A DNA stretch of 64,000 nt. It comes from an uncultured Bacteroidales bacterium (GTDB taxonomy: Bacteria > Bacteroidota > Bacteroidia > Bacteroidales > Paludibacteraceae). The notes beneath the pieces are model-generated. The model searched no databases. It was not told the origin of the DNA and saw only the letters and a list, made by a program, of their open reading frames with translations. The stretch lies in contig CACZEL010000002.1 of NCBI GenBank assembly GCA_902780235.1, forward strand, positions 88,069 through 152,068, in the 5' to 3' direction. How positions within the stretch are numbered: position 1 is the first letter of the stretch; each line of letters begins with the position of its first letter. A program made the translations under genes and the position numbers. Shown in pieces: positions 3,734 through 63,463 of the stretch.

Positions 3734-3754
3734 TTGAAAGGTGAAAGGTGAAAG
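3734..3754. repeat. 7-bp tandem array, 3 units (TTGAAAG/GTGAAAG)
   Basis: Three heptamers fill the nadB-to-peptidase junction. The last unit supplies the GTG start codon (3748) of the downstream peptidase gene. Confidence 0.8.
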
Positions 3755-4548
3755 GAATTTCATTATATAGTGTGACGCCGGTACGAACGGAGGCTAGTGA
3801 GGCGGCGGAGCAGAGTACGCAGATCTTGTTCGGCGAGACGTTTGCCATATTGGAGCAAAAACCCCGATGGACTCGCGTTAAACTGGACTCGGACGCTCAG
3901 GAAGGATGGGTGGATGCGAAGATGATTTGTCCGATGAAAGCGGAGGAATATGCATCTTATCGTCAGGCTTTGAACGGTGCTGCGACCGTGGTCATGCCGA
4001 TGGCTTATGCCGTGAGTGAGAACAACGGTCAGACCATCCCGCTTACTGCCGGTACCCGCTTGACGAACTATCAAGCCGGAAGGTTCGAAGTGCTCGGTGT
4101 CGGTTTTCGTATCGATCCGGGCATGGTGATTGCAAAAAGTCTCGATTTGAACGAACAAAATCTGCTGCAAGCGGTGCGTTTTTTCCTCAATATCCCTTAC
4201 CTTTGGGGAGGCAAGAATGCGATGGGAATGGACTGCTCGGGCTTTACGCAGATCATCCTGAGTCTCTTTGGTAAAAAACTTCCGCGTAATGCTTCCGAAC
4301 AAGCCACTTGCGGACGTAAGATAAGTGCGCTTACAAAGGTCAAAGCCGGCGACCTCGTTTTCTTTAATCACCAATCACCAATGACCAATGACCAATCACC
4401 AATCTCCCACGTAGGCATCGTGATAGATGCAGAACGCGTGATTCATTGTTCAGGACGCGTGAAAGTGGAAAAACTCGATGAAACCGGCATTTTTAATGCA
4501 GAGACCGGTCAATATTCGCATCATTTAGTCAGTATCCGAAGAATATGA
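3748..4548 (+). CDS. SH3 / NlpC-P60 cysteine peptidase
   Basis: 266 residues with two parts: bacterial SH3-like segments (about 1-125) and a C-terminal NlpC/P60 domain. The catalytic Cys is residue 163 in MGMDCSGF, and the catalytic His lies in ISHVGIVID. I see no signal peptide, so cleavage of imported murein peptides in the cytoplasm (YkfC-like dipeptidyl-peptidase VI) is more likely than cell-wall cutting; this is inference. Residues about 208-219 (HQSPMTNDQSPI) are encoded by a heptamer array and insert just before the catalytic His strand. The start is GTG 3748, which lies inside a repeat unit, so its exact position is uncertain. It overlaps the sirtuin gene by 4 bp (ATGA). Confidence 0.85.
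   Translation: MKGISLYSVTPVRTEASEAAEQSTQILFGETFAILEQKPRWTRVKLDSDAQEGWVDAKMICPMKAEEYASYRQALNGAATVVMPMAYAVSENNGQTIPLTAGTRLTNYQAGRFEVLGVGFRIDPGMVIAKSLDLNEQNLLQAVRFFLNIPYLWGGKNAMGMDCSGFTQIILSLFGKKLPRNASEQATCGRKISALTKVKAGDLVFFNHQSPMTNDQSPISHVGIVIDAERVIHCSGRVKVEKLDETGIFNAETGQYSHHLVSIRRI
4369..4403. repeat. 7-bp tandem array, 5 units (CACCAAT/GACCAAT), coding
   Basis: Five heptamers, C,C,G,G,C at the first base and otherwise identical. They lie inside the peptidase gene, encode a polar insertion before the catalytic His, and do not interrupt the frame. Confidence 0.9.
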
Positions 4549-5246
4549 AACGTATTGTTGTTTTTACCGGCGCAGGTGTCAGCGCAGAGAGTGGTCTGGG
4601 TACCTTCCGTGACTCAGACGGGTTATGGGAAAAATACCGCATCGAAGATGTATGTACCCATGAGGCGTGGATAAGAAACCCGCAGTTATGTGTCGATTTT
4701 TACAATGCCCGACGTAAGGATACTTTGGCTGCCCAACCGAACGCAGCGCATATGGCGATCGCCAAACTGCAGCAAGCCATCTCCGGTACGCGTATCATCA
4801 CGCAGAATATAGACGACCTGCACGAACGTGCCGGTGCTACCGATGTGGTTCACCTGCATGGTGAGATCACCAAACTGCGTTCCGAACGCAATGAGACGGC
4901 GACAGTGCCTCTAGAAGGATGGGAGCAACATTACGGTGACCGTCATCCCGATGGTTCGTTATTGCGCCCGTACATTGTCTTCTTCGGGGAAGGTGTGCCG
5001 TACTTTGAAGAGGCATGCCATATCGCATCGCAAGCCGATATCATGGTGGTAGTGGGTACCAGCCTGAATGTCTATCCGGCCGCTTCGCTGATCCATTATG
5101 CGCCGGCGAATTGTGCGATCTATTTTGTGGATCCCGGTCAACCGGAGTTCGGCATGTGGGCAGATCGTATCACCCATATCCGTAAGAAAGCCACCGAAGG
5201 TGTACCCGAGTTGGTGGATAAATTGATTAGTGAATTAGAGAATTAG
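4545..5246 (+). CDS. cobB: Sir2-type NAD-dependent protein deacylase (CobB-like)
   Basis: 233 residues. Removes acyl groups from lysines using NAD+. It has GAGVSAESGLGTFRD (NAD binding), TQNIDDLHERAG, the catalytic His in HLHGE, and VVGTSLNVYPAA. The FYNARR motif carries the Tyr and Arg that in class III sirtuins (SIRT5, E. coli CobB) favour succinyl and malonyl lysine. The four zinc cysteines usual between HLHGE and the FFGE strand are absent (that segment has no Cys), so it looks like a zinc-less sirtuin. The ATGA overlap with the peptidase gene suggests translational coupling. The last residues (ISELEN) and the stop codon are encoded by an 8-bp repeat array. Confidence 0.92.
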   Translation: MKRIVVFTGAGVSAESGLGTFRDSDGLWEKYRIEDVCTHEAWIRNPQLCVDFYNARRKDTLAAQPNAAHMAIAKLQQAISGTRIITQNIDDLHERAGATDVVHLHGEITKLRSERNETATVPLEGWEQHYGDRHPDGSLLRPYIVFFGEGVPYFEEACHIASQADIMVVVGTSLNVYPAASLIHYAPANCAIYFVDPGQPEFGMWADRITHIRKKATEGVPELVDKLISELEN

Positions 5247-5257
5247 TGAATTAGGGA
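5226..5257. repeat. 8-bp tandem array, 4 units (ATTAGNGA)
   Basis: Four 8-mers with T, A, T, G at the sixth base. The array covers the sirtuin stop codon and ends on the base before the ATG of the next gene at 5258. Confidence 0.9.
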
Positions 5258-5629
5258 ATGAACGCTCTTTATACGATTTTATTGCTTTTGGCGTCGAATA
5301 TCTTCATGACGGTAGCTTGGTATGGTCATTTGAAACTGCAGCAGACGGGATTTTTTACCAATGCTACGCCTTTGATCTTCGTGATTCTGTTGTCTTGGGG
5401 AATCGCTTTCTTTGAGTACTGCCTCCAAGTACCGGCCAATCGCATGGGTTTTGAAGGAAACGGCGGTTCGTTCAGTCTGATGCAACTCAAAGTGATACAA
5501 GAGGTGATCACACTTGTCGTGTTTGTTATCTTCTCAGCACTCGCTTTTCACATGCCGCTGAGGTGGAATCATTTCGTGGCATGTCTGTTGCTGATCGCTG
5601 CCGTCTATTTTGTGTTCGGCTTCAAATAA
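5258..5629 (+). CDS. DMT-family (DUF486) small membrane protein
   Basis: 123 residues with four predicted membrane helices (about 3-20, 35-53, 75-97, 103-121). This matches the DUF486 branch of the drug/metabolite transporter superfamily, whose members are about 110-120 residues long. The motif SWGIAFFEYCLQVPANRMG is typical. The substrate is unknown; such short four-helix proteins usually work as dimers. ATG 5258 follows an 8-bp array directly. The 3' end overlaps the convergent ttcA-like gene by 8 bp. Confidence 0.85.
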   Translation: MNALYTILLLLASNIFMTVAWYGHLKLQQTGFFTNATPLIFVILLSWGIAFFEYCLQVPANRMGFEGNGGSFSLMQLKVIQEVITLVVFVIFSALAFHMPLRWNHFVACLLLIAAVYFVFGFK

Positions 5630-6398
5630 GTTTCGGAAGATACTCTGTTTTGATGTTTGTAAGCGCTCCATACATGGAGTCAATCGCTTCCGGGTTAAGG
5701 GCTTTTATCTGCGATAAGAGCTCTTTTACTTTCTCTCGCGAACTGACATGCTCGAAGGGGCATAACTTCGTTTGCTTCTCATATCCCCGCATCTCGGCAT
5801 AGCGGATGATGTCCGCTTCATCGATCAGGCAAAGCGGCCGGATGAGTTGTAGCGGCATCTTGTCCAATTGCAATATCGGCGGCATGGTGGCAAACGTACC
5901 TTGATAGATCAGGTTCATCAGTAAGGTCTCGGCGATGTCATCGCGGTGATGCCCGAAAGCGATCTTGTTGCACCCGATCTCTTGGGCTACATTAAATAGC
6001 GTCTTGCGCCGATACCACGAGCAGAGAAAACAAGGGTTCTCGATTTTCGATTTTCGATTTTCGATTTTTGATTCAGGAACTTCGCCGATCTCCACGTCGT
6101 GTACCAGAAGCGGAACACCTGCTTCGGCGCAGAAGGCTTCCAGGTAAGAGAGGTCAGTGTGATAATCCCGCTCTTTGACGCGCACGTGGAGCGCACTTAC
6201 TTTAAAAGAAGGCACATGAATCCGTGCGCGGCGACCCAATAACTCGGTCAGCAGCAAGGAGTCTTTGCCTCCGCTCAAACCGATTAGGATATGATCACCG
6301 TCAGCGATCAATCGGTAGTCGGCACAGGCTTTATGAAAGCGCTTGGTGAGCCGGTCGCGTTGTTTGTCGAGTGCTATTTGTTCCAGAGTCTTAGGCAC
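5622..6398 (-). CDS. ttcA: TtcA-family tRNA 2-thiocytidine synthetase
   Basis: 258 residues. ATP-dependent PP-loop enzyme; the family thiolates cytidine 32 of tRNA using a [4Fe-4S] cluster. The PP-loop is GLSGGKDSLLL. The cluster cysteines are in CFLCSW and in the later KLCPFE, equivalent to the three Cys of E. coli TtcA, and IAFGHHRDDIAETLL is the conserved ATP-site stretch. A heptamer array encodes an extra ESKIENRKSKIEN stretch (about residues 109-120) just ahead of the CxxC. The GTG start at 6398 overlaps the end of prsW by 8 bp, so the genes are likely cotranscribed. A true TtcA function is probable, but a related thiolase specificity is not excluded. Confidence 0.85.
   Translation of the reverse strand: MPKTLEQIALDKQRDRLTKRFHKACADYRLIADGDHILIGLSGGKDSLLLTELLGRRARIHVPSFKVSALHVRVKERDYHTDLSYLEAFCAEAGVPLLVHDVEIGEVPESKIENRKSKIENPCFLCSWYRRKTLFNVAQEIGCNKIAFGHHRDDIAETLLMNLIYQGTFATMPPILQLDKMPLQLIRPLCLIDEADIIRYAEMRGYEKQTKLCPFEHVSSREKVKELLSQIKALNPEAIDSMYGALTNIKTEYLPKLI
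6040..6074. repeat. 7-bp tandem array, 5 units (TCGATTT), coding
   Basis: Four exact TCGATTT copies and a fifth, TTGATTC, inside the ttcA-like gene (read on the minus strand). It is the most uniform array in the window and keeps the frame open. Confidence 0.92.
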
Positions 6399-10605: not shown

Positions 10606-10613
10606 ATAATATA

Positions 10614-10641
10614 TTTGAAACCATAAATTTGAAATCATAAA
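10614..10641. repeat. 7-bp tandem array, 4 units (TTTGAAA/NCATAAA)
   Basis: Four heptamers forming two 14-bp copies that differ at one base, between lpxC and lpxA. Four bases separate the array from the lpxA ATG. Confidence 0.8.
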
Positions 10642-10645
10642 TCTT

Positions 10646-11416: not shown

Positions 11417-11448
11417 GGAAATTCAAGGGCATTCGTAGGGATGCTATT

Positions 11449-11492
11449 GGGTGATTATAGGGTGATTATTGCGTGATTATAGTGTGATTCGA
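11449..11492. repeat. 11-bp tandem array, 4 units (GNGTGATTATA)
   Basis: Four 11-mers in the lpxA-glnS gap (98 bp). The core GTGATT is identical in all four and the flanks vary. The glnS ATG is 22 bp downstream. Confidence 0.9.
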
Positions 11493-14550: not shown

Positions 14551-14592
14551 TTGACAAAAATGGTAGAAAAGCATACAAAGTGGCATATACAT

Positions 14593-14623
14593 TTGTATAT
14601 GTCATTTTTTTTTAGTACCTTTG
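14593..14623 (+). promoter_or_regulatory. Promoter of the 14.66 kb membrane protein gene
   Basis: TTG (14593), 20 bp, TACCTTTG (14616-14623); the -33 side reads TTGTATATGTCATTTT. It lies in the 107-bp gap after phoH. Confidence 0.75.
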
Positions 14624-14657
14624 CCGTCGCAAAAAATCGGTTAAAATCTATACGCAC

Positions 14658-20671: not shown

Positions 20672-20772
20672 AGGACGGCCTGCGGCCTACAGGACGCGGC
20701 AAGCCGCTACAGAGGAAAGTGAAAGGATGAAAACAGGGTATTCTCCCGTAGATGTTAGGGTGACGTCATAGT

Positions 20773-20838
20773 GAGCACCCGATGAGCATCCGATGAGCAC
20801 CCGATCAGCATCCGATGGAGACAGATGGAAGACAGGTG
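20773..20838. repeat. 11-bp tandem array, 4 + 2 units (GAGCAYCCGAT)
   Basis: Four 11-mers alternating CACCC and CATCC, followed without a break by two 11-mers of a second type (GGAGACAGATG, GAAGACAGGTG). It fills most of the 261-bp gap before kdgK; I see no gene or promoter in that gap. Confidence 0.88.
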
Positions 20839-21966: not shown

Positions 21967-21998
21967 CGATATATCGATATTTCGATAAATCGATATAC
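21967..21998. repeat. 8-bp tandem array, 4 units (CGATANAT)
   Basis: Four 8-mers starting 4 bp after the kdgK stop. Another CGA-type 8-mer array follows kdgA, so the gene is bracketed by related arrays. Confidence 0.9.
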
Positions 21999-22024
21999 CG
22001 AAGTTTTAACAAGAAAAGAAAATT

Positions 22025-22695: not shown

Positions 22696-22727
22696 CGATA
22701 TATCGAGAAATCGAGATATCGAAATAT
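22696..22727. repeat. 8-bp tandem array, 4 units (CGANATAT)
   Basis: Four 8-mers between kdgA and the MFS gene. Same length and CGA start as the array before kdgA, but different inner bases. Confidence 0.9.
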
Positions 22728-22750
22728 CGAATCTTTTAAAGAAAACAAAA

Positions 22751-24202: not shown

Positions 24203-25127
24203 ACTGAATAATAGTTAAAGCCGTCATGGCTTCGACGACGGGCACGGCGCGAGTGGCAACACACGCGTCGTGTCTTCCTTTTACACCGGCTTTGGGAGTG
24301 GAAGGCGTGGGTTTGAAGACGCAGCGGAAGACGATCTCTGAACCATCGGAGATGCCACCGGAGATGCCGCCGGAGAGGTGGTTGATGGCAGAGCCGGGTT
24401 GGGTGACACCTCTAAAACCGGTACCGTACTCAAAGCCTTTGCAGGCATTGATGCTCATGACGGCAAAAGCGAGGTGGGCTTGCAGTTTGTCGAAGATGGG
24501 TTCACCTGTACCGACGGGCAGACCGTTGATACGGCACTCGATGATGCCGCCGATCGAGTCACCGTCTTTCTGATACGTGGCGATCGTGTCGGCGAATTTT
24601 GCCGGATCGGTCTCTGCGCCTACTTGAACCAAGGTCGCTGAGATACAGATTCCTTTTTGTGCCAATTGCTGTTTGGCGATACAGCCGGCCACAACGCGGG
24701 CTGCTGTTTCGCGGGCTGAGGCTCTACCGCCGCCTCTCCAATCGCGGATACCGTATTTCTGTTCATAGACCCGATCGGCATGGCCGACGCGATAGGTGTG
24801 CTTAAATATTTCGTAATCCTCCGGTCGTGCGTCTTTATTGCGAATGATAAAAGCGATCGGTGTACCGAGGGTCACTAAAGAACTTTGGCTGTTGGCTGTT
24901 GGCTGTTGGCTTATCACCCCTGAGAGCCATTCCACTTCGTCGGGTTCGTTTTTGGCACGAGCGGAGGCACCTACCACTCCTTTTCCGGCACGGCGCTCCA
25001 ACTCTTCGCGGATCTTCTCGAAGTTAATAGGAAGACCTGCAGGTACGCCGTCCAGTACACCGCCTATCGCTGCTCCGTGGGACTCACCGAAGCTCGTAAA
25101 CGTCCATTTTTCGCCAAATGTATTCAT
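24195..25127 (-). CDS. aroC: Chorismate synthase, compact form
   Basis: 310 residues against about 355-360 for most bacteria. Converts EPSP to chorismate with reduced FMN. Signatures present: SFGESHGAAIGGVLDG at the N terminus, RDWRGGGRASARETAARV in the middle, and GRHDACVATRAVPVVEA at the C terminus. The shortening is mainly in the loops between about residues 170 and 290, where other family members have insertions. Residues about 72-81 (SQQPTANSQS) come from a heptamer array. All core motifs remain, so activity is likely. It has its own promoter, divergent from the PCMD gene. Confidence 0.92.
   Translation of the reverse strand: MNTFGEKWTFTSFGESHGAAIGGVLDGVPAGLPINFEKIREELERRAGKGVVGASARAKNEPDEVEWLSGVISQQPTANSQSSLVTLGTPIAFIIRNKDARPEDYEIFKHTYRVGHADRVYEQKYGIRDWRGGGRASARETAARVVAGCIAKQQLAQKGICISATLVQVGAETDPAKFADTIATYQKDGDSIGGIIECRINGLPVGTGEPIFDKLQAHLAFAVMSINACKGFEYGTGFRGVTQPGSAINHLSGGISGGISDGSEIVFRCVFKPTPSTPKAGVKGRHDACVATRAVPVVEAMTALTIIQFI
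24885..24912. repeat. 7-bp tandem array, 4 units (TTGGCTG), coding
   Basis: Three exact TTGGCTG and one TTGGCTT within aroC. On the coding strand it reads as Gln/Pro/Asn/Ser-rich codons in a surface loop. Confidence 0.9.
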
Positions 25128-25224: not shown

Positions 25225-26322
25225 ATGAAAATTGAAAGGATAAATATAACTATTATATTCTTATTTGCTCTTCTTCAGCCGCTTTCGGCGCAGCAGTTGC
25301 CGGATAATCATTTTGAGAACTGGTCGGATAAATTCAAGAACGACGCTCAGCTGGTAGATTGGCATGGCAGTAATGTGTACCAAGTCGGTTCGAAATTCAC
25401 GTTTATGTATCAGAAACCGGGTCGTACGGGTTTTTGCGCGTACGTGACCGATCGGTCTATCGGTATCCCGAAACTGAACTTGGGTGCTACAGGTCCCGGA
25501 TATATGAGTTTAGGTGTGCCTTGGCAATACCTGAAGGGTTTGAATCTGAATAGTGCGACGGCGGGTACGGAAGGTGGTATCAATTGGAAATACCGCCCGG
25601 ACACGATGTCGGTATGGATCAAGCGTGTGGGACCGGCGACCGATATAGAGGATTTTCATTTGTTGTACTATTCATGGATCGGTACTGCCAAGAGTTCGCA
25701 GTACAAGAATAAAGTAGGCGGTTGCACGACCACGGAGCGTATCAACGAGGAGTCGGACATCCGTTCGGCGACAGACGGCAACGAGTGCGGCATTGACCAA
25801 CCGGTGAAGCAGGTAGCGGAAGGGTGGTATCGTGCGCGTGCGAAATATAATGAGTGGACGCAGATCAAGGTGCCTATCCTGTATAAGAACGACGGTCGTC
25901 CGACGATGTGTAACGTCATTTTCTCGGCGGGTAACTATCCGGCTTTTCGCGCCAACGATGGTTTGTATGACGGCAACGCGCTGTATGTGGATGATGTGGA
26001 ACTGATCTACTCGTCCCGTATTGACAAACTGACCATCAACGGCAAGGAATGGAAGGGTTTTAACCCAAACAGCGAGAAAGAGCAAGTGGTTAAGTTATCT
26101 GAGCTGGGTGTACAGACTTCGGAAATCAGGATAGCCGGCTATCGGGGTATCGGTACGCTGATCAATATCAAAGGCGAGAAGGCGAAATTCAACGGCCGCA
26201 AACTGGATACGCAGGAGATGACCGTGATGCCCGGTGAGATCAACGGCAAACCGTGGGTGATCACCGTAAAAGCGGAAGACGGAAGCAGTGCACACACGTA
26301 TAAGGTGAGAGTTGAAAGGTGA
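25225..26322 (+). CDS. Secreted PCMD-domain protein
   Basis: 365 residues. Signal peptide (about 1-24, ending LSAQ). The main part (about 30-260) resembles the PCMD domain (putative carbohydrate metabolism domain) of Bacteroidetes: it opens with HFENWSD and ends with NALYVDDVELIY, a jelly-roll-like carbohydrate-binding pattern. A short Ig-like tail ends ITVKAEDGSSAHTYKVRV. No lipobox Cys and no catalytic residues are recognised, so a glycan-binding or surface-layer role is likely but unproven. The stop codon falls inside a heptamer array that leads into the glycosyltransferase gene. Confidence 0.75.
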   Translation: MKIERINITIIFLFALLQPLSAQQLPDNHFENWSDKFKNDAQLVDWHGSNVYQVGSKFTFMYQKPGRTGFCAYVTDRSIGIPKLNLGATGPGYMSLGVPWQYLKGLNLNSATAGTEGGINWKYRPDTMSVWIKRVGPATDIEDFHLLYYSWIGTAKSSQYKNKVGGCTTTERINEESDIRSATDGNECGIDQPVKQVAEGWYRARAKYNEWTQIKVPILYKNDGRPTMCNVIFSAGNYPAFRANDGLYDGNALYVDDVELIYSSRIDKLTINGKEWKGFNPNSEKEQVVKLSELGVQTSEIRIAGYRGIGTLINIKGEKAKFNGRKLDTQEMTVMPGEINGKPWVITVKAEDGSSAHTYKVRVER

Positions 26323-26332
26323 AAAGTGAAAG
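26312..26332. repeat. 7-bp tandem array, 3 units (TTGAAAG/GTGAAAR)
   Basis: Same unit type as the array at 3.73 kb. It covers the PCMD stop codon (26320-26322) and precedes the GTG start at 26339. Confidence 0.82.
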
Positions 26333-26338
26333 GGAATA

Positions 26339-27526
26339 GTGAAAGTGTTTGGATTGGATTTTAATACGGTTGACTATATCCTTTTAGGGACGTTATTGGT
26401 ACTTTTCCTGGCGCAGATTTATTGGTACGCGCGCTATATGTGTGCCCCTGCGCGCAAGATGAGGAAGAGTCGAAAGTCAAAAGTCGAAAGTCAAAAGACA
26501 GCCGAAACGCCCGGAGTGACGGTGGTCTTGTGTGCGCATAATGAGGCATATAATATATCGAACTACCTGCAAGCCCTTTTGACGCAGGACTACCCGGAGT
26601 ATGAGGTGATCGTGGTGGATGATGGTTCGGAGGACGAGACCCGTGCGATGATCGAGCGGTATATGGTTCACGACGAGCGTCTGCACATGACTTTTGTGCC
26701 TTACGGCGCACGTGTGGGATCGACGAAGAAATTAGCCTTGACCCTTGCGGCAAAGGCGGCGAAGTACGACTATCTGTTGCTTACCGATGCCGATTGCGTT
26801 CCGGAGAGCAATCAATGGATCCGCACGATGATGGCGGGATTTGAGGAAGTACAAAGTGACAAGGTACAAAGTACAAAGGATCTTGTCTTGGGCTTTAGTC
26901 CGTATTTTATTGAAAAAGGACACGTGAATCGTTTGATTCGTTTTGATACTTTGTTCAACGGGTTACATTATTTGGGCGATGCTCTCTGCGGACACCCGTA
27001 TATGGGCGTGGGACGTAACTTGGCGTACCGCAAGTCGCTCTTCTTTGAGTCGGGTGGTTTTACCCATTCGATGACGAGTAAGGCCGGAGATGATGACCTG
27101 TTCGTGAACCATCTGGCTACCAAAACGAACACGGCGGTAGTGGTGACACCGGAGAGTTACATGTGGTCGCTGCCCAAGCGAACGATGAAAGAGTGGATTC
27201 AGCAGAAACGCAGACATCTGTCCGTCTCGCCGAACTACCGTTGGGGCACGAAGATCCGTTTGCTCATGGAGCCTCTCACGCGCGGATTGTTCTATGCAGC
27301 GGTGCTGTATGTAGTGGTCAGTTATCAGTTATCAGTTGTCAGTTTGGCAGCACTCGGCTTGTTCCTGTTGCGGTGGATGATCCAGACGATGATACTCAAT
27401 ATATCCGCTCGCAAGATGGGGATGAAACGATTCTGCATGGCGAGTGTGTTGTGGTTTGATGTCACGCTTCCACTGGTGAACCTTTGGATGCTGATTGTCC
27501 CGAAAAGAAAGAATACAAAATGGTAA
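26339..27526 (+). CDS. Family-2 glycosyltransferase, membrane-bound
   Basis: 395 residues. An N-terminal membrane helix (about 11-30), then a GT2 domain: VVLCAHNEAYNISNYL, IVVDDGSEDET, the DxD-type LTDADC, AGDDDLFVN and the acceptor-side QQKRRHL. C-terminal membrane helices follow (about 315-345 and 365-388). Probably a polysaccharide or lipid glycosyltransferase; donor and acceptor are unknown. Three separate heptamer arrays lie inside it (about residues 44-52, 170-179 and 327-335), in the linker after the first helix, a loop, and a membrane helix. The start is GTG 26339. Confidence 0.85.
   Translation: MKVFGLDFNTVDYILLGTLLVLFLAQIYWYARYMCAPARKMRKSRKSKVESQKTAETPGVTVVLCAHNEAYNISNYLQALLTQDYPEYEVIVVDDGSEDETRAMIERYMVHDERLHMTFVPYGARVGSTKKLALTLAAKAAKYDYLLLTDADCVPESNQWIRTMMAGFEEVQSDKVQSTKDLVLGFSPYFIEKGHVNRLIRFDTLFNGLHYLGDALCGHPYMGVGRNLAYRKSLFFESGGFTHSMTSKAGDDDLFVNHLATKTNTAVVVTPESYMWSLPKRTMKEWIQQKRRHLSVSPNYRWGTKIRLLMEPLTRGLFYAAVLYVVVSYQLSVVSLAALGLFLLRWMIQTMILNISARKMGMKRFCMASVLWFDVTLPLVNLWMLIVPKRKNTKW
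26468..26495. repeat. 7-bp tandem array, 4 units (AGTCRAA), coding
   Basis: AGTCGAA and AGTCAAA alternate. The array encodes a Lys/Ser-rich linker between the first membrane helix and the catalytic domain. Confidence 0.9.
26848..26876. repeat. 7-bp tandem array, 4 units (AGTACAA), coding
   Basis: Three heptamers and one 8-mer (AGTGACAA). Encodes EVQSDKVQSTK in the glycosyltransferase; nearly the same peptide occurs in the AroA-GT fusion. Confidence 0.85.
27317..27344. repeat. 7-bp tandem array, 4 units (RTCAGTT), coding
   Basis: G, A, A, G at the first base. Encodes part of a C-terminal hydrophobic segment (SYQLSVVS). Confidence 0.9.
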
Positions 27527-27532
27527 AATAAA

Positions 27533-27553
27533 GTTTAATGTTTAAAGTTCAAA
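27533..27553. repeat. 7-bp tandem array, 3 units (GTTTAAA)
   Basis: GTTTAAT, GTTTAAA, GTTCAAA in the 31-bp gap before the DUF3467 start codon. Confidence 0.75.
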
Positions 27554-27557
27554 GAAT

Positions 27558-27866: not shown

Positions 27867-27870
27867 ATGA

Positions 27871-27891
27871 ATTGAAAATTGAAAATTGAAA
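27871..27891. repeat. 7-bp tandem array, 3 units (ATTGAAA)
   Basis: Three identical heptamers immediately after the DUF3467 stop; 12 bp remain to the next ATG. Confidence 0.85.
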
Positions 27892-27903
27892 ATTATTGAT
27901 ACT

Positions 27904-28779: not shown

Positions 28780-28781
28780 CT

Positions 28782-28809
28782 TTAGCCCTTAGCTTTTAGC
28801 TATTAGCTT
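28782..28809. repeat. 7-bp tandem array, 4 units (TTAGCNN)
   Basis: TTAGCCC, TTAGCTT, TTAGCTA, TTAGCTT. It fills the gap between the two genes almost exactly and ends on the base before ATG 28810. Confidence 0.9.
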
Positions 28810-30795
28810 ATGAAGAAATTATGTGTTATCTTGGCAGCCGTAGGGATTCTCTGCGGCTGTCGAAAGAAAGAAACTTCTTTCCAATACAACGTGGATAAGT
28901 TCTATGACCTTGAGATCCTTCGGTATGACGTGCCGGAGTTTGAGAGTTTGACGCTGCAACAGAAGCAGTTAGTGTATTGCCTGAGTGAGGCTGCTTTGTG
29001 GGGACGCGATATCTTGTATGACCAGAACGGTCGTTATAACCTGCGTATCCGTCGGGCGTTAGAGGCATTGTATCTCAATTATCCGTACGAGAAGGATACC
29101 GAGGAGTTCGCCGCTTTTGAGCGTTACCTCAAGCGTGTATGGTTCTCCAACGGTATTCACCATCATTATTCGGAGGATAAGTTCTTGCCGGAATTTGACC
29201 AAGGATGGTTCGAGAAGGCTTGCGAGAAAGCACATGTGGAGTATGATCCGGAGATCCTGCCCGTTATGTTCGATGGGAAAGTGATGCCGAAACGAATGAC
29301 CGCTCAGGATGGTATCGACCTTGTGGCTAACTCTGCCGGTAACTATTACGGCGAAGGTGTCACGCAAGCGGAGGCGGAGGCATGGTATGCTGTGCATAAG
29401 GACAATAGTCCTGAACCGCTTTGGATTGGTTTGAACTCCCAACTTGTCAAGAACGAGAAAGGTGAGATCGAGGAGCGCGTGTATAAAGTAGGCGGACTGT
29501 ACGGTGAGGCTTTGGATAAAATAGTAACTTGGCTCAATGAGGCTTTGCAGTTTGCGGAGAACGAAGAGCAACGCACGGTCATCAAGTATCTGATCGAGTT
29601 CAATCAGACAGGTAACTTGCAAGCTTTCAATGACTATTGCATTGCTTGGGTAAAGGATCTGGAGAGCCGCGTGGACTTCGTGAACGGTTTCACCGAGACC
29701 TATTCCGACCCGTTGGGTATCACCGGTACATGGGAGTCGATGGTTAACTTCAAAGACCTTGCGGCTACCAAGCGTACGCAGTTGATCTCCGACAATGCAC
29801 AATGGTTTGAGGATCACTCAACGACCGATCCGAAGTACAAGAAAGAAGAGGTGAAGGGTGTAACGGCGAAGGTTATTACGGCAGCTATCCTTGCCGGTGA
29901 CTGTTATCCCGCAACGCCGATCGGTATCAACCTGCCGAACGCCAACTGGATCCGCAAAGAGTACGGTTCCAAGTCCGTGACGATCGACAACTTGATGCAT
30001 GCATATAACGAGGCTGCCAAGGGTAACGGTTTCAACGAAGAGTTCATGATCGACGATGAGATCCGCGCGATCTACGAGAAATATGGCGCGATGTGCGGCG
30101 ACCTGCATACCGATTTGCACGAATGTGTCGGTCATGGTAGCGGTAAATTGATGCCGGGCGTCACCAAAGACGCGTTGAAGGAGCACGCTTCGACGATCGA
30201 AGAGGCGCGTGCCGACTTGTTCGGACTCTATTATCTGGCTGATCCCAAACTCGTTGAGTTGGGTCTGCTGCCGAACAAAGAGGCGTATAAAGCCGGTTAT
30301 TACCAGCAGATGATGAATGGTCTGATGACGCAGTTGGTACGTATCGAGCCGGGTAAGGACATCGAGGAAGCGCATATGCGAAATCGTCAACTCATCGCCA
30401 ACTGGTGTTATGCCCACGCGAATGGTGAGATGGAGATCATCGAGCGGGACGGTAAGCACTATTTGCAGATCAATGACTACGAAGGTGTTCGTCGTTTGTA
30501 TGGTGAACTGCTTGCAGAGATCCAACGGATCACTTCGGAAGGTGACTATACTGCTGCCAAAGAGATGGTTGAGACGTACGCGGTGAAGGTGAATCAAGAT
30601 CTTCACAAAGAGATTCTGGAGCGCTATCAAAAACTCAACTTGGCGCCGTATAAAGGTTTCGTGAATCCCAGATATATCGTAGAGCGCAATAAGAAAGGCG
30701 AGATCACGGACATCAAACTGGACTTCACCGAAGGTTATATCGAGCAGCATCTGCGTTATTCGAAAGAATATAGTCCGCTACCGGATGTCAATTAA
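28810..30795 (+). CDS. Dipeptidyl-peptidase III (M49), lipoprotein
   Basis: 661 residues, normal for bacterial DPP III. Zinc peptidase that removes dipeptides from peptide N termini. The metal motif is HECVGHGSGKL (His 437 and His 442 by count) with the second Glu in EEARADLFGLYYL. The N terminus (MKKLCVILAAVGILCGCRK) has a lipobox with Cys at about 19, so it is probably anchored in the periplasm or outer membrane. It may feed on peptides during growth in the gut or on plant material; that is inference. Its TAA stop overlaps the ATG of the next gene by one base. Confidence 0.93.
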   Translation: MKKLCVILAAVGILCGCRKKETSFQYNVDKFYDLEILRYDVPEFESLTLQQKQLVYCLSEAALWGRDILYDQNGRYNLRIRRALEALYLNYPYEKDTEEFAAFERYLKRVWFSNGIHHHYSEDKFLPEFDQGWFEKACEKAHVEYDPEILPVMFDGKVMPKRMTAQDGIDLVANSAGNYYGEGVTQAEAEAWYAVHKDNSPEPLWIGLNSQLVKNEKGEIEERVYKVGGLYGEALDKIVTWLNEALQFAENEEQRTVIKYLIEFNQTGNLQAFNDYCIAWVKDLESRVDFVNGFTETYSDPLGITGTWESMVNFKDLAATKRTQLISDNAQWFEDHSTTDPKYKKEEVKGVTAKVITAAILAGDCYPATPIGINLPNANWIRKEYGSKSVTIDNLMHAYNEAAKGNGFNEEFMIDDEIRAIYEKYGAMCGDLHTDLHECVGHGSGKLMPGVTKDALKEHASTIEEARADLFGLYYLADPKLVELGLLPNKEAYKAGYYQQMMNGLMTQLVRIEPGKDIEEAHMRNRQLIANWCYAHANGEMEIIERDGKHYLQINDYEGVRRLYGELLAEIQRITSEGDYTAAKEMVETYAVKVNQDLHKEILERYQKLNLAPYKGFVNPRYIVERNKKGEITDIKLDFTEGYIEQHLRYSKEYSPLPDVN

Positions 30796-32453: not shown

Positions 32454-32490
32454 GCATTGCTATCAATATGCAGAGGTGATCCCACCGTGA

Positions 32491-32617: not shown

Positions 32618-32671
32618 GCATGAGAATTGTGAGAAAAGTGAGAAATCTCACAATTCTCACTTTTCTCATGC
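32618..32671. repeat. Nested inverted repeat
   Basis: GAGAATTGTGAGA (32622-32634) matches TCTCACAATTCTC (32646-32658) perfectly. Inside is GTGAGA-AA-TCTCAC (32638-32651), and outside are GCATGAG and CTCATGC at the two ends. Two alternative hairpins can form. Confidence 0.75.
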
Positions 32672-32679
32672 AAAAATTC

Positions 32680-32711
32680 GTTATGACGTTATGAGGTCAT
32701 GACGAGATGAC
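32680..32711. repeat. 8-bp tandem array, 4 units (GTTATGAC-like)
   Basis: GTTATGAC, GTTATGAG, GTCATGAC, GAGATGAC, ending 14 bp from the tRNA-Ala 3' end. Confidence 0.85.
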
Positions 32712-32725
32712 GATGGGAAAAAATG

Positions 32726-33438: not shown

Positions 33439-33442
33439 AAAA

Positions 33443-33480
33443 TCATTTACAATTTAATCATTTACCATTTTTTCATTTAT
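33443..33480. repeat. 7/8-bp array at rnfE-rnfA junction (ATCATTT/ACCATTT)
   Basis: About five units of mixed 7 and 8 bp. It covers the rnfE stop codon and the gap up to rnfA. Confidence 0.65.
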
Positions 33481-34683: not shown

Positions 34684-34694
34684 AGTTGTCCTCC

Positions 34695-37087: not shown

Positions 37088-37093
37088 AATTCC

Positions 37094-37135
37094 ATTTGGT
37101 CATTTACCATTTACCATTTATTTGACCATTTGGTC
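37094..37135. repeat. 7/8-bp array at rnfB-rnfC junction (ATTTACC/ATTTGGTC)
   Basis: About five units; the outer ATTTGGTC copies flank ATTTACC copies. It fills the gap before rnfC and reaches the rnfB stop. Confidence 0.82.
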
Positions 37136-43284: not shown

Positions 43285-44458
43285 ACTCCTTTATTTTACG
43301 ATATAATGTTCTTTCCGAGCGACCGAGTCGTGCCGCTGCCTCTTTGCGGTTGCCTCCGGATAGCTCGAGCGCACGACGGATAAGTTCTTTCTCGCTGTCA
43401 TCGACGCGAAGAGATGCCTCTTCGACGGGAAGGATATCCTCGGTCTCGCGGGAAGGCGCAATGTCTTCGGGCTCGCGAAGAGGCGATTCGTCGATCGTAC
43501 GAGATGTCGAAATCTCGAGATGTCGATTGTTAGTGAGCAGTGCTTTGAGTTCCTCGAGGTCTTTCTTGTTCTGCATCACCATGTTATAGAGAATGCCGAT
43601 CTCATGAGAGTAGTCTTTGCCGGTCGGTTCTTTGCTGGACGTACGAAGGACGATTCCTTGCTGGTTTTCTTCCGCAGGCAGGTAGCGCTGCAGGGTCTCG
43701 GCGTTGATCTGGTGATCCAACTCGATGGTAGCGATCTGCTCGGCAAGGTTCTTGAGTTGGCGGATGTTTCCCCTCCAATAACTGTTTTGCAGCAGACGTG
43801 TCGCCTCTTCGTTGAGCGAAAGCGGCGGCATCTGGTAGCGGTTGCAGAAATCCACGGCGAATTTACGGAAGAGCATAGGAATGTCTTCTTTGCGCTCGCG
43901 CAAGGCTGGTACACGTATCTCAACGGTGTTGAGACGGTAATATAGATCCTCACGGAAACGGCCGTCATCGATGGCTTGCCGCATGTTGAGGTTAGTGGCC
44001 GCCACAACGCGCACGTTCGTTTTGCGCACTTGGCTCGATCCCATGCGCAGGTATTCGCCGGTCTCCAATACACGGAGCAGACGCACTTGTGTCTGCAGCG
44101 GCAATTCGCCCACTTCGTCCAAGAAGAGCGTACCGCCGTCGGCTATCTCGAAGTAACCCTTATGCTCATTTTTGGCATCTGTGAAGGCACCTTTCTCGTG
44201 TCCGAATAGTTCGCTATCGATCGTTCCTTCAGGGATCGCGCCGCAGTTGACGGCGAAATACGGTCCATGTTTGCGGGCTGAGAAAGCGTGAATGATTTTC
44301 GGGAAATGCTCTTTACCGACACCGGATTCTCCGGTGATGAGCACACTCAAATCGGTGCGCGCTACTTGCACGGCTATTTCGATGTCGCGATTTAGGAGCG
44401 GACTCTGTCCGATGATCCCAAAACGCTGCTTGATACTTAATAATTCTTGCTGTGTCAT
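43271..44458 (-). CDS. Sigma-54-dependent transcriptional activator, no receiver domain
   Basis: 395 residues. An AAA+ domain begins near residue 10 (no N-terminal sensory domain): Walker A GESGVGKE, the sigma-54 contact loop GAFTDA, Walker B GTLFLDEVGEL, then a Fis-type helix-turn-helix at the C terminus (GGNRKEAAARLGRSERTLYR). A linker (about 300-350) includes an 8-bp repeat array. It may respond through the linker or a partner protein. Target promoters are not apparent in this window. It precedes lptE with overlap. Confidence 0.9.
   Translation of the reverse strand: MTQQELLSIKQRFGIIGQSPLLNRDIEIAVQVARTDLSVLITGESGVGKEHFPKIIHAFSARKHGPYFAVNCGAIPEGTIDSELFGHEKGAFTDAKNEHKGYFEIADGGTLFLDEVGELPLQTQVRLLRVLETGEYLRMGSSQVRKTNVRVVAATNLNMRQAIDDGRFREDLYYRLNTVEIRVPALRERKEDIPMLFRKFAVDFCNRYQMPPLSLNEEATRLLQNSYWRGNIRQLKNLAEQIATIELDHQINAETLQRYLPAEENQQGIVLRTSSKEPTGKDYSHEIGILYNMVMQNKKDLEELKALLTNNRHLEISTSRTIDESPLREPEDIAPSRETEDILPVEEASLRVDDSEKELIRRALELSGGNRKEAAARLGRSERTLYRKIKEYGLD
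43485..43532. repeat. 8-bp tandem array, about 6 units (GANNTNTC), coding
   Basis: Six 8-mers beginning GA (48 bp, 16 codons) in the linker of the sigma-54 activator, reading HLEISTSRTIDE on the coding strand. The last unit is diverged. Confidence 0.75.
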
Positions 44459-45396: not shown

Positions 45397-47670
45397 ATGG
45401 AAAATAAGACGAACGAGATAGATGTACGCAAGATTTTGCGTTTGGTATGGGAGCACTGGTGGTGGTTTGCCGTAGGTGTAGGTGTGTGCGTACTTTTGGG
45501 TACAGCGTATTTTTTGCGTAAAACGCCCAAATGGACGACAGATGCCAGTGTGATGTTACGTCAGAAAGAAGGGGAGACTGGCTTGAATGCTTTGTCTATG
45601 TTAGGCCTATCCGGAAACACGGCTGCAGAGGATGAAGTGGTCGTTTTTTCTTCGCGCGGTTTGTTATACCAAGCGATCGATGCCTTGAATATTTGGGATG
45701 CCTCTTCCAAACGCGGAGGTTTGCGTTGGGAAGGTGAGTTCCGCAATCCGGCGTTGTCGATAGATTATTTGTCTTTGACAACAGATGCCAAGAATCGCCC
45801 GTTTGTGGTCAAGGTTAAACCGACGAAGAAAGGTTATACGGTAAAGACCAAGATGGGTTTCTTCTGCCGTTCGACGCGCCGTGTGGCGGATTTGAATGCG
45901 CCGATTGAGACGGGAGTTGGTACCTTGTTGATTCACGCAAACCGCCCGTTGAGTTTGGATACAGCCTATCGGGTAGTGCATAAACGCAGGGAGTTGGTAG
46001 TAGCCGGATATCAGAATGACATCACGGTAGCGCTCAATAAGAAAGAGTCGAATATCATTAAGTTGTCCACGAAGTCCACGAACCCTGAACGTGACAAGGC
46101 CTTGCTGCATCAGATGATTGAGCAATATAACCTGAACGCGATCGTAGACAAGAACCTGTTGGCTACGAATACGGCAGCGTTCATCGACGAGCGTTTGATG
46201 ATCATCAGCAAAGAGTTAGGTGAAGCGGAAGAGGCGGTTTCTGAGTATAAGGAGAAGAATAACATCGCGGATCTGAATACGCAGGCGCATTTGTTCCTGC
46301 AAGCCAGCAGCCAGGAGCAACGGGCGATGGCTGAGATCGAGACACAGTTGAGTTTGGTAGATTATATCGATGATTTCTTGCGTGATGAGACGAAGCGGAA
46401 CAGTTTGATCCCTGCCAATATCGGAGTGACGGACGCTTCTTTGTCCAGCGGTTTGTCGGAGTACAATGCTTTGCAGTTGCAACGGATGCGAATCTTGCGA
46501 ACCGCTACCGATGACAACCCGGTGATTGAGCAGATGAATTCCCAATTGGTTTCCATGCGACAGAATATCATGGAGACGATAGGGTCGGTGCGCGAGAGTC
46601 TGAAGATACGTCAGCGCAGTTTACAGGCACAGGATACGAAGTTCAATCGTCAGATTCAAGATGCGCCTGAGCGTGAACGTGAGTATGTGCGCGTTTTGCG
46701 TCAGCAGAAAATCAAGGAGCAGTTATATATCTATCTGTATGAGAAACGCGAAGAGAACGCGTTGATGTTAGCTGCTACCACGATGCCGGCGAAGATCCTG
46801 GATATGCCGCAACGCGATGTTCGTAGCCAGAGTCCGAAACTGATTAAACTGCTGGTGATATGTATCTTCTTGGGCTTGATGATTCCGGCAGGCTTGCTTT
46901 ACTTGTACGTGCTGTTTAACGACACGATTGATGATGCAAAGGATTTCGAACAACATGTGAAGGCGCCGATGTTGGGCCAGTTGGTACAGAACTCCCGCAA
47001 TGCACATATCGCTATTCACGAAGGCGAATCGACCGTTTCGGCGGAGTTGTTCCGCTTGATTCGTACGAACCTGCGGTTTGTGCTGCCGCCAGAAGCGAAG
47101 AATCCTGTCATCTTGGTGACCAGTTGTATCAACGGAGACGGTAAATCGTACGTTTCCAGTAATATCGCGTTGTCTTTGGCTATACTGGGAAAGAAAGTGG
47201 TGTTGGTCGGCATGGACATCCGCAAACCGATGTTGGCTACTTATTTCGGATTGAAGGACAAAGGTCATCTGACGGATTATCTGGCAGAACCGGAGATTGC
47301 ATTGGAGGATATTATTGTTCCAAGCGGCGAGCATAAGAATCTGGATCTGATTCCGTGCGGTACCGTTCCGCCGAATCCGGCAGAGTTACTGCTCTCGGAG
47401 CGTGTGGATGAGTTGTTCCGTGAGTTGCGTAAGCAGTACGATTACATCATCGTCGATACGGCGCCGGTAGCGTTGGTAAGTGATACGTATCAGTTAGACC
47501 GCATAGCCGATCTGACACTCTTCGTTTGTCGGTATAAATACACGCCGAGCGAGATGGTTGAGTATATCAATAACGTGGTCGAGCAGCAGCGAATGCATAA
47601 TGTGGCTTGTGTGCTCAACGGCGTCAAAGGTCTTCGTGCCGGCTACGGATATGGGGCTACCAAATCGTAA
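45397..47670 (+). CDS. Wzc-like chain-length determinant / BY-kinase
   Basis: 757 residues. Wzz domain with membrane helices near residues 20-40 and 485-510, a long coiled-coil periplasmic part (about 240-440), then a cytoplasmic BY-kinase: Walker A CINGDGKSYVSSNIA, Walker A' LVGMDIRKPML and Walker B YIIVDTAPV. The usual Tyr cluster at the C terminus is reduced to GYGYGATKS. Controls polysaccharide length and export through phosphorylation. Five bases separate it from the wza-like gene. Confidence 0.92.
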   Translation: MENKTNEIDVRKILRLVWEHWWWFAVGVGVCVLLGTAYFLRKTPKWTTDASVMLRQKEGETGLNALSMLGLSGNTAAEDEVVVFSSRGLLYQAIDALNIWDASSKRGGLRWEGEFRNPALSIDYLSLTTDAKNRPFVVKVKPTKKGYTVKTKMGFFCRSTRRVADLNAPIETGVGTLLIHANRPLSLDTAYRVVHKRRELVVAGYQNDITVALNKKESNIIKLSTKSTNPERDKALLHQMIEQYNLNAIVDKNLLATNTAAFIDERLMIISKELGEAEEAVSEYKEKNNIADLNTQAHLFLQASSQEQRAMAEIETQLSLVDYIDDFLRDETKRNSLIPANIGVTDASLSSGLSEYNALQLQRMRILRTATDDNPVIEQMNSQLVSMRQNIMETIGSVRESLKIRQRSLQAQDTKFNRQIQDAPEREREYVRVLRQQKIKEQLYIYLYEKREENALMLAATTMPAKILDMPQRDVRSQSPKLIKLLVICIFLGLMIPAGLLYLYVLFNDTIDDAKDFEQHVKAPMLGQLVQNSRNAHIAIHEGESTVSAELFRLIRTNLRFVLPPEAKNPVILVTSCINGDGKSYVSSNIALSLAILGKKVVLVGMDIRKPMLATYFGLKDKGHLTDYLAEPEIALEDIIVPSGEHKNLDLIPCGTVPPNPAELLLSERVDELFRELRKQYDYIIVDTAPVALVSDTYQLDRIADLTLFVCRYKYTPSEMVEYINNVVEQQRMHNVACVLNGVKGLRAGYGYGATKS

Positions 47671-47695
47671 ATGGTAAATGTCTAAATCGTAAATG
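47667..47695. repeat. 7-bp tandem array, 4 units (GTAAATG)
   Basis: GTAAATG twice, one 8-mer TCTAAATC, then GTAAATG. It covers the Wzc stop (47668-47670); topB's GTG follows 3 bp later. Confidence 0.83.
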
Positions 47696-57559: not shown

Positions 57560-57586
57560 TTCCCTTTTAGCTATCAACAGCTAGTT

Positions 57587-57630
57587 ATTACTTAGATATT
57601 ACTTGGTTATTGCTTAGTTGTTACCCTTAT
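57587..57630. repeat. 11-bp tandem array, 4 units (ATTACTTAGNT)
   Basis: Four 11-mers in the gap between the two convergent terminators, so it is outside both transcription units. Confidence 0.8.
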
Positions 57631-59229: not shown

Positions 59230-59244
59230 GATAATATAATTATG

Positions 59245-59265
59245 AATTCTTAATTCTTAATTTTT
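59245..59265. repeat. 7-bp tandem array, 3 units (AATTCTT)
   Basis: AATTCTT, AATTCTT, AATTTTT in the 44-bp gap between the GH28 gene start and the FAD-protein stop. Confidence 0.78.
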
Positions 59266-59273
59266 AATTACAA

Positions 59274-61837: not shown

Positions 61838-61860
61838 AATATAGTTGTTTTTAATTTTCG

Positions 61861-61892
61861 TAATAACGTTATTACGTCATAACGTAATATCG
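61861..61892. repeat. 8-bp tandem array, 4 units (NNATNACG), in recA leader
   Basis: TAATAACG, TTATTACG, TCATAACG, TAATATCG, placed between the recA -7 element and the start codon. It includes the perfect palindrome TAATAACGTTATTA (61861-61874). Confidence 0.85.
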
Positions 61893-62572: not shown

Positions 62573-62607
62573 ACAATTTACAATGTACAATTTACAATGT
62601 ACAATTT
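62573..62607. repeat. 7-bp tandem array, 5 units (ACAATNT)
   Basis: ACAATTT and ACAATGT alternate strictly (three and two copies). It encodes the last eight residues and the stop codon of the DUF4924 protein and ends 2 bp before nth. Confidence 0.92.
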
Positions 62608-63042
62608 ACTTAAATATTGCAGCACTTGGGTGGCTTGTTGTTGGACAGAGGCGGTTTCCCGGGTGATCTCCTTTTTCTGGAGGCGAAGGAGCATGATCTG
62701 ATAGAGAAGCAAGAGACATGCCTCGATGTCCGACATGGTCGGACGGTCGGTTTTGGCCTTGAGCAGGTTGAGCGAGGGTTGAAGACGAATGATCGCGGCG
62801 CGGTACATGGCATCTTCATAGAGAAGGGTAGCATGCAGGTCGATGAGTTCGGTTAAAGCATTGTTGGCTAAAGCCAGATGACCGGACTCAACGATGCCTT
62901 CGCGATGCATCATTTCGTTCAGTTCGTGTAACTCAGGCGTCGCTTCTGCGTTTTGCGGAAACGCACGCAAATAATCTTCCATCTGCCAGAGATAGAGAAT
63001 ATATTCCGCTATGTTGTCTTTTTTACTCCTCATCGTCGTCAA
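62578..63042 (-). CDS. DUF4924 protein
   Basis: 154 residues, helical, cytoplasmic. AEYILYLWQMEDYLRAF at the N terminus and ARTMSDIEACLLLLYQIML-like sequence (TMSDIEACLLLLYQIMLL) match DUF4924, a Bacteroidetes family without known function. The last residues (LYIVNCTL) come from the heptamer array, not from the family domain. Overlaps the S4 gene by 20 bp. Confidence 0.8.
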   Translation of the reverse strand: MTTMRSKKDNIAEYILYLWQMEDYLRAFPQNAEATPELHELNEMMHREGIVESGHLALANNALTELIDLHATLLYEDAMYRAAIIRLQPSLNLLKAKTDRPTMSDIEACLLLLYQIMLLRLQKKEITRETASVQQQATQVLQYLSKLYIVNCTL

Positions 63043-63436
63043 AATCGATATCGTCTAAATAATTATCACTCATAAAGACCTCAATATCTCGTCTGTCTTT
63101 CTTTGTCGGTCTTCCAGTGCCTCTATCCCGACCGCCATTACCGGCAAGACGTGCGAGTTCGAGCAATTCAAGTTGTTGCGGAGAGGTGCAATCTTGCATG
63201 TATTCGGGTACGAGTTTGGCGCCGAGGCGGTTCTCGGTCAGTTGGAGCACCTTATAGGTATAGGTGATCGGACCCTTGCGCACGTTGAACATATCGCCGA
63301 TCTTGAAGGTGCGGCTGGGTTTGAGTTGGACGCCGTTCATTGAAATACGCCCGTTTTTGCAGGCATCAGCAGCGATTGAGCGGGTCTTGTAGATCCGCAT
63401 GGCCCAGAGGTATTTATCGACACGAACTTCGCTCAT
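63023..63436 (-). CDS. S4-domain RNA-binding protein (Hsp15-like)
   Basis: 137 residues. The S4 domain opens RVDKYLWAMRIYKTRS and continues with KNGRISMNGVQLKPSR; the basic stretch GRPTKKDRRDIEVF and an acidic tail (DDIDFDDDEE) follow. E. coli Hsp15 rescues stalled large ribosomal subunits carrying peptidyl-tRNA; a similar ribosome-recycling role is likely. Lies between DUF4924 and the sulfatase gene. Confidence 0.9.
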   Translation of the reverse strand: MSEVRVDKYLWAMRIYKTRSIAADACKNGRISMNGVQLKPSRTFKIGDMFNVRKGPITYTYKVLQLTENRLGAKLVPEYMQDCTSPQQLELLELARLAGNGGRDRGTGRPTKKDRRDIEVFMSDNYLDDIDFDDDEE

Positions 63437-63442
63437 AGAGTA

Positions 63443-63463
63443 TTCAGTTTTCAGTTGTCAGCT
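63443..63463. repeat. 7-bp tandem array, 3 units (TTCAGTT/GTCAGCT)
   Basis: Covers the stop codon of the sulfatase gene and its last codons; the S4 gene begins 6 bp beyond. Same CAGTT core as the array at 27.32 kb. Confidence 0.8.

Follow-up and report, generated by a model that had tools for sequence, protein, structure and literature searches.

Degenerate heptamer arrays are known from cyanobacteria, where they are called short tandemly repeated repetitive (STRR) sequences. They are a fair comparison, as a preliminary description of the DNA studied here had proposed, for the numerous short tandem arrays in a 64,000-nucleotide stretch from an uncultured rumen bacterium of the order Bacteroidales, family Paludibacteraceae (assembly GCA_902780235.1, contig CACZEL010000002.1, here C2:88069-152068; hereafter, the window), the source genome of which comprises 2.28 Mb in 58 contigs. 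These arrays form blocks of ~30-40 bp that repeat internally, mainly every 7 bp but in other cases every 8, 9, 11 or 15 bp, and we are somewhat inclined to regard them as many small lineage-specific families of miniature dispersed, internally periodic repeats that spread by short ectopic copying.

The abundance of heptamers in bacteria is already known (PMC4679880, PMC4692102), and a 2025 survey reports no average enrichment of short tandem repeats in bacteria (PMC12699852). Like STRRs and the heptanucleotide long simple sequence repeats (LSSRs; PMC4679880), the present arrays are degenerate heptamers that are mostly short, dispersed and abundant in some lineages only. Unlike these, they form many unit families per genome, include periods 8, 9, 11 and 15 and have a similar block length throughout; they exceed chance by far (122 heptamer arrays in 464 kb versus 0.2 per shuffled set) but are not mainly intergenic, given that 58 of the 122 lie inside called genes. 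The GGGAATC-type repeats of Xanthomonas and Nostoc, with ~185 arrays per Xanthomonas genome, 89-93% of them intergenic (PMC4692102), likewise consist mostly of four units, include inverted pairs and vary between close species. However, they are built from one G-rich unit, in contrast to the dozens of mostly A-rich units and the in-frame coding insertions seen here. The TAACTGA repeats of Beggiatoaceae are mostly intergenic, have 2-6 copies, lie near start codons, and are also known from five Bacteroidetes, one of which, Paludibacter propionicigenes, has two sets (PMC4679880). In that case, a single heptamer is conserved and related heptamers are rare, whereas here the unit differs between arrays and species, and there is no single conserved unit of the TAACTGA or GGGAATC kind.

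Two other systems share particular features with these arrays. Rickettsia palindromic elements (PMC10969869) are likewise dispersed, occur in frame in unrelated genes and encode a conserved peptide, a behavior matched by one composite described below, but they are palindromic and ~150 bp long, in contrast to the ~32-bp tandem blocks of non-triplet period seen here. The palindromic form, ~100-150 bp length and terminal inverted repeats of such elements and of miniature inverted-repeat transposable elements (MITEs) are not found among the arrays, with the exception of one hairpin composite. Tandem repeats of Borgs (PMC9879509) are also fast-evolving, A-rich, located both between and within open reading frames (ORFs), and add peptides, but the Borg ORF repeats are perfect amino-acid repeats on extrachromosomal elements, whereas here the coding period is mainly 7, so that the frame changes with each unit. 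Apart from the TAACTGA report, our literature search, to which most subscription journals were closed, yielded no paper that treats heptamer families of Bacteroidales or Paludibacteraceae. As far as the available portions of these reports go, none of the compared systems fully matches the combination of many unit families, similar block length, non-triplet periods within housekeeping genes and genome-specific families.

Abundance and unit lengths of the arrays

An independent ungapped array detector (score threshold 12, periods 4-30) identified 28 arrays in the window, compared to 0.3 per dinucleotide shuffle (20 shuffles). Rows of Tandem Repeats Finder (TRF) were obtained within ~15 bp of 29 of the 30 start coordinates given in the preliminary description. 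The tandem arrays that it reported are real and well above chance. The exception, at 41289, is by eye an imperfect AGTCGAA-type array, and the row at 40714 has 1.9 copies only. The TRF rows with at least three copies include 20 of period 7, 8 of period 8 and 4 of period 11 (a hand count in which some rows overlap). The 11-bp row at 31419 is probably due to chance, the encoded ASAMHQLCI being present also in the related locus L050. A single Rfam match, to a tRNA, was obtained at gathering score.

Array counts were then compared between 464 kb of the source genome (the window and 20 further stretches) and 1,460 kb around the M49 peptidase gene at 80 named loci of kin, that is, Bacteroidales assemblies, many of them labelled Paludibacteraceae and many from ruminants, with one genome compared per species. 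Restricted to periods 5-16, with longer ones excluded, the source genome sample contains 208 arrays (122 of period 7, 26 of period 8, 17 of period 9, 15 of period 11, 13 of period 15, 7 of period 10, 3 of period 14, 2 of period 12, and one each of periods 5, 6 and 16), and its shuffles contain almost none. The kin sample contains 428 arrays (215 of period 7, 78 of period 11, 35 of period 8, 31 of period 9, 23 of period 15, 16 of period 16, 9 of period 14, 8 of period 10, 7 of period 6, 5 of period 12 and one of period 13). The three unit lengths singled out in the preliminary description, 7, 8 and 11, accordingly dominate (163 of 208 and 328 of 428 arrays, respectively) but are not the only ones because 9, 15 and 16 are present as well. 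The depletion that it anticipated is seen for period 10, and also for 12 and 13, but not for 9.

Median array length in the source genome is 32 bp for period 7, 32.5 for 8, 29 for 9, 36 for 10, 38 for 11 and 31 for 15; the respective values in kin are 32, 36, 29, 36, 39.5 and 34 bp, and 41.5 bp for period 16. Thus, the copy number of four that was described as usual is correct for 7- and 8-mers, but largely because the total block length is similar whatever the unit, with copy number following from it. The broader claim, that unit length and array length are constrained while the sequence varies, is borne out.

The abundance of the arrays is lineage-specific. Heptamer arrays per 100 kb (100-464 kb for each genome) number 26 in the source genome, 15 in G275, the closest relative sampled, 7.3 in G002, 7.5 in G014, 7 in G004, 4 in G007 and 0.5 in G008, which belongs to the same genus and has nearly no arrays in the 200 kb seen. 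The 303 kb examined from 16 other families of the order contain only 8 arrays of period 7, and there were none in 140 and 120 kb of two other-family genomes (partly the same stretches as in the 303-kb set). Because one genus spans the range from high density (this species) to almost none (200 kb of G008), the heptamer preference of bacteria could be studied here.

Recurrent unit families and composites

The preliminary description attributed to each array a unit sequence of its own, but the 122 heptamer arrays of the source genome share 45 canonical units, whereas 200 random draws of noncoding heptamers from outside arrays give 113 units on average and never fewer than 106, and the largest family includes 15 arrays versus at most 5 in the draws. 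The arrays of one genome repeatedly draw on the same unit families, and these differ from one species to the next. In particular, the AGCYAAY family accounts for 28 of the 122 arrays in the source genome, but for 1 of 60 in G275, 1 of 29 in G002 and 1 of 215 in the named kin (Fisher test, 7e-5 versus G275 and 1e-12 versus kin, for a family chosen after the counts were seen). An exact AAAGGTG trimer is present in 5 of 247 genomes of the order, the source genome included, indicating that this family is not order-wide. Local spreading along the chromosome was considered and rejected, same-family pairs showing no short-distance enrichment.

Irregular combinations of units recur as well. A 33-bp composite of GGTGAAA-type units, with GGTTAAA as the second, encodes KGERLKVKGER, which is the sole open frame on that strand, with TTA replacing a TGA stop. 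A search of six genomes with up to 2 mismatches, seeded with the TTA form and hence favoring TTA copies, yielded 18 matches at 18 loci in this genome (TTA unit in 11), 25 in G275 (~18 loci with shifted matches merged), 6 in G280 (5 loci), 5 in G300 (1 locus) and none in G002 and G003; the reversed control gave none in all six. Among 19 copies examined (10 from the source genome, 7 from G275 and 2 from G280, with two sites common to the source genome and G275), 18 are open over ~35 codons with KGERLKVKGER or a near variant, and one contains a stop. Copies in the source genome lie in frame in unrelated proteins, namely IspD, a DHH protein, an esterase and an RluA-type protein. AGCYAAY units also form a hairpin composite, with 9 copies in the source genome, one in G280 and none in G275, G002, G003 and G300. 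Most copies resemble one another at their outer ends, and no ends are common to the two composites. Identical irregular stretches of at least 30 bp, in arrays not within 3 kb of each other, form 6 pairs versus 0-3 in 25 shuffles of unit order, and those of at least 26 bp number 22 versus 4-14. One array on contig C8 (oC8 60824), which is absent from G275, contains a 27-bp irregular stretch found also at two other C8 loci. The recurrence of genome-specific unit families and of composites at unrelated loci suggests the copying of several sequences, contrary to the earlier proposal of a length-controlled process rather than copying of one sequence.

Inverted partners are found for 5 of the 17 nine-bp arrays (control, 0) but for only 2 of the 122 heptamer arrays within 120 bp, equal to the control, and a general hairpin architecture was accordingly rejected. 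In L030 (10150-10900) and L047 (7950-8400), we observe clusters of differing 9-bp arrays, with several inverted pairs near GCATG-like boundaries and no called gene. The window itself contains, at 32454-32720, a ~200-bp composite intergenic repeat with 11-, 10-, 9- (inverted) and 8-bp arrays, parts of which recur in the source genome at C1:32171, C14:21204 and C10:14470.

Location and turnover of the arrays

The arrays of the window are located as follows, with the strand given where one is assigned.

3731..3755, 7-bp array AAGGTGA at the gene junction before the NlpC/P60 gene
4366..4404, plus strand, 7-bp array AATCACC in the NlpC/P60 open frame (FFNHQSPMTNDQSPISHVGIVI)
5226..5259, 8-bp array ATTAGTGA at a gene junction
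6040..6073, minus strand, 7-bp array TCGATTT in the open frame of a PP-loop (ATP_bind_3) protein (ESKIENRKSKIENP)
10609..10642, 14-bp row (7-like) that nearly fills the 40-bp gap between a gene end at 10605 and a gene start at 10646
11445..11489, 11-bp array at a gene junction
20772..20817, 11-bp array TGAGCAYCCGA, intergenic
21967..22001, 8-bp array CGATATAT at a gene junction
22696..22730, 8-bp array CGAGATAT at a gene junction
24885..24911, minus strand, AGCCAAC array, in-frame insertion in chorismate synthase (VISQQPTANSQSSLVTLGTP)
26302..26345, 7/14-bp array at a gene junction
26468..26497, plus strand, AGTCGAA array in frame in the GT2 linker (RKSKVESQK), where several kin have other units
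26847..26878, plus strand, GTACAAA-type array in frame in GT2 (EVQSDKVQSTK)
27318..27344, plus strand, TCAGTTA array in frame in GT2 (VSYQLSVVSL)
27529..27554, 7-bp array in a gene gap
27870..27894, 7-bp array AATTGAA at a gene junction
28781..28809, 7-bp array that fills the gap 28780-28809 before the M49 peptidase ORF almost exactly
30794..30826, plus strand, 7-bp array at the M49 stop and aroA start, forming the N-terminus of the ORF (MYNVQRTMYKG...)
31830..31859, plus strand, GTACAAA array in frame in the AroA-glycosyltransferase fusion (VQSDKVQCTK), lacking in L050
32490..32531, 11-bp array in the composite intergenic repeat
32621..32668, inverted pair of 9-bp arrays (hairpin)
32679..32713, 8-bp array CGTTATGA, adjoining tRNA-Ala
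33441..33479, minus strand, 15-bp (7+8) AAATGAYNAAATGGT-type array in the minus-strand gene cluster 32845-37529
34079-34106, 35671-35737 and 37092-37139, rows related to the array at 33441..33479
43500..43526, 8-bp array
47662..47695, 7-bp array AAATGGT at a gene junction
57582..57624, 11-bp array
59237..59269, 7-bp array TAATTCT at a gene junction
61859..61889, 8-bp array
62573..62609, 14-bp (7x2) array ACAATTT/ACAATGT, with a 27-bp identical irregular stretch also at L039 2696
63439..63461, 7-bp array at a gene junction

By a crude gene caller (in-house codon score, uncertain starts, genes such as IspD missed), the arrays inside called genes include, besides the heptamers mentioned above, 6 of 26 of period 8, 3 of 17 of period 9, 7 of 13 of period 15 and one each of periods 6 and 12; an array in IspD (L030 14197) was counted as noncoding. 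Thus, the usual triplet preference is not seen. The gene arrays that were checked, in chorismate synthase, IspD and CobW, are in-frame insertions. In chorismate synthase, the AGCCAAC array adds 10 residues at a site where a structure (PDB 5z9a) has a gap in the one alignment shown. The loop is short in 23 of 33 kin orthologues, by eye with no resemblance to the AGCCAAC array, and the other 10 have inserts of their own, which are visibly repetitive in at least 4 (L081, L086, L090 and L110). The GT2 protein was matched at 74 kin loci and, among the matches listed, its linkers vary between species and in many cases have a visible periodicity. In L068, L076 and L127, which are ~91-92% alike, different short elements occupy the same N-terminal GT2 linker, including a CCCTCCCTAAAAGGAGGGG-type insert. 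The arrays fall within Pfam domains in IspD (two arrays), CobW, a DHH phosphoesterase, an aminotransferase and an esterase; the one in RecR is situated between the Toprim and C-terminal domains, and in a metallophosphoesterase and an RluA-type synthase, it is outside the domain match. We also observe a fusion of AroA (EPSP synthase) with a C-terminal glycosyltransferase-like segment (window 30795-32453); L050 has the same fusion frame, which is hence no assembly accident in this genome.

Orthologous sites frequently lack the array, or have a shorter one or one built from a different unit. Between positions -12 and +70 of the M49 stop (aroA start), an array is present at 27 of the 80 named loci versus 1 of 80 shuffled controls (loci L010-L028, some of which repeat places of named loci, were dropped), with several different units among kin; L014 and L053 differ here by exactly one unit. 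The same 35-bp array is found at this junction in L053, L091 and L097 but not in L052, the nearest to L053 by identity, which suggests gene exchange or old ancestry.

The source genome and G275 are 86.8% identical over ~74 kb aligned. For 27 arrays of the source genome with both flanks anchored, the G275 counterpart is shorter in 18 cases, of the same length in 7 and longer in 2, whereas 32 arrays lost an anchor and 85 are outside aligned blocks. In the reverse comparison, 13 G275 arrays are anchored, and the source genome counterpart is equally long in 5 cases, longer in 5 and shorter in 3; a further 12 lost an anchor and 65 are outside aligned blocks. Because contigs were tried on both strands, these misses include double counts. 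A few arrays are conserved between the two genomes, and the differences include clean presence/absence of 31 and 34 bp as well as swaps of units (CAGTTTT for TTAGCTG, CACCTTT for TTAATTT and TTTGTAC for GGCTGAC).

Origin of the arrays

Short-block copying is the simplest account of the unit families, the genome-specific abundance and the composites, with slippage behind the changes in unit number and selection behind location and frame. Tens of nucleotides of an existing array would be copied to another site and thereby give rise to a new copy, most likely via microhomology-guided template switching or short-patch illegitimate recombination (a literature search for the latter phrase gave no match). 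Because periodic sequence repeats the same microhomology, arrays might serve with unusual ease as donors and acceptors, and the replacement of arrays at the same site would be explained as well. Slippage by whole units could then adjust array length, and selection would purge inserts other than those at gene junctions or in tolerant loops, in which an insert has to be of a total length that preserves the frame and has to be free of stops; no host function would be needed. It is also possible, although we propose it tentatively, that the ~32-bp periodic blocks are self-propagating DNA without an encoded enzyme, in which periodicity makes the sequence copyable and families burst within a lineage, rewriting gene junctions and the loops of essential enzymes. 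If copying is the origin, the arrays would offer a tractable example of tandem repeats that act as mobile elements do instead of arising as slippage products, and would supply essential bacterial proteins with rapid in-frame variation of their loops. A low-complexity insert in a protein of these rumen Bacteroidales may represent repeat DNA rather than function.

The strongest rival is slippage with a built-in 7-bp preference, along the lines of the polymerase-contact idea for bacterial heptanucleotides, which would build arrays in situ from local sequence, with unit recurrence resulting from sequence-dependent slippage and selection against stops. This we consider rather unlikely as the whole explanation, although heptanucleotides are the most abundant long-repeat class in most genomes (Mrazek 2007, as cited in PMC4679880) and whole-unit copy changes are seen. 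In-situ growth leaves poorly explained the commonness of AGCYAAY (28 of 122 versus 1 of 60 arrays) in only one of two genomes that are ~87% alike, the recurrence of irregular composites, and the short chorismate synthase loops that do not look like the array. Slippage as sole generator is also strained by the source genome itself, where isolated exact 2-copy heptamers are not in excess (24 versus 30 in shuffles) and arrays peak at 4-5 copies. However, several results favor slippage or weigh against copying. In kin, 2-copy heptamers are in excess (149 versus 79 shuffled; array mode 4 copies), as they are, against one shuffle each, in G002 (40 versus 20), G014 (29 versus 18) and G008 (12 versus 7), although not in G007 (8 versus 10) and G004 (8 versus 9). 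Thus, stepwise slippage alone does not predict the pattern in the source genome and yet probably contributes. At the M49/aroA junction, the first unit of several arrays is similar to the local TCAATTAA, a finding compatible with in-situ growth and equally with microhomology. Same-family pairs are not enriched at short distance along contigs, no donor-acceptor pair with proven direction was found, and the array differences from G275 are unpolarised, that is, either gain or loss. The KGERLKVKGER composite has TCA in place of TTA in one G275 copy, indicating that stops can also be avoided independently, and the seeding of the search favors finding the TTA form. The unit-order test is unclear at 28 bp (6 versus 0-7, with 2 of 25 shuffles reaching at least 6), and at 22 bp, in its first version, it gave 44 versus 21-35.

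A dedicated enzyme or mobile element that writes the blocks, by templated repeat synthesis or by transposition of the repetitive extragenic palindrome (REP)/MITE type, would account for the similar total length across periods, the rather uniform ends within each of the two composites and the clade-restricted abundance. Such a writer appears improbable because these composites share no ends and the sole candidate searched for, the reverse transcriptase domain RVT_1, is found in only 5 of 21 same-genus genomes, the source genome included; a reverse transcriptase was rejected as a conserved generator on these counts. Loss of mismatch repair was rejected as a cause as well, the MutS_V domain being present in 20 of the 21 genomes of the genus and the single miss (G017) being 54% complete. 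It is very unlikely that the arrays are regulatory or structural elements of their genes, such as 5' leaders, spacers, terminators or protein-binding sites. Many do lie at gene junctions, one supplies the aroA start region, 9-bp arrays have inverted partners, and arrays are present in 2 of 17 divergent gaps versus 94 of 265 other gaps (Fisher 0.06). Nevertheless, almost half of the heptamer arrays are inside called genes, arrays occur in either strand orientation, and the same site holds unrelated units or nothing in other species. That the arrays are assembly artefacts of metagenome bins is hardly credible: although the compared genomes that have a title are metagenome assemblies and the arrays are short repeats, the frame is kept in the genes checked, array loci come from many separately assembled genomes, and blocks of ~32 bp are shorter than the usual sequencing reads.

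Finally, 22 further partial matches in the genome were obtained for a ~55-bp intergenic stretch of the window (14577-14634), which is located upstream of the gene at 14658 and looks promoter-like.

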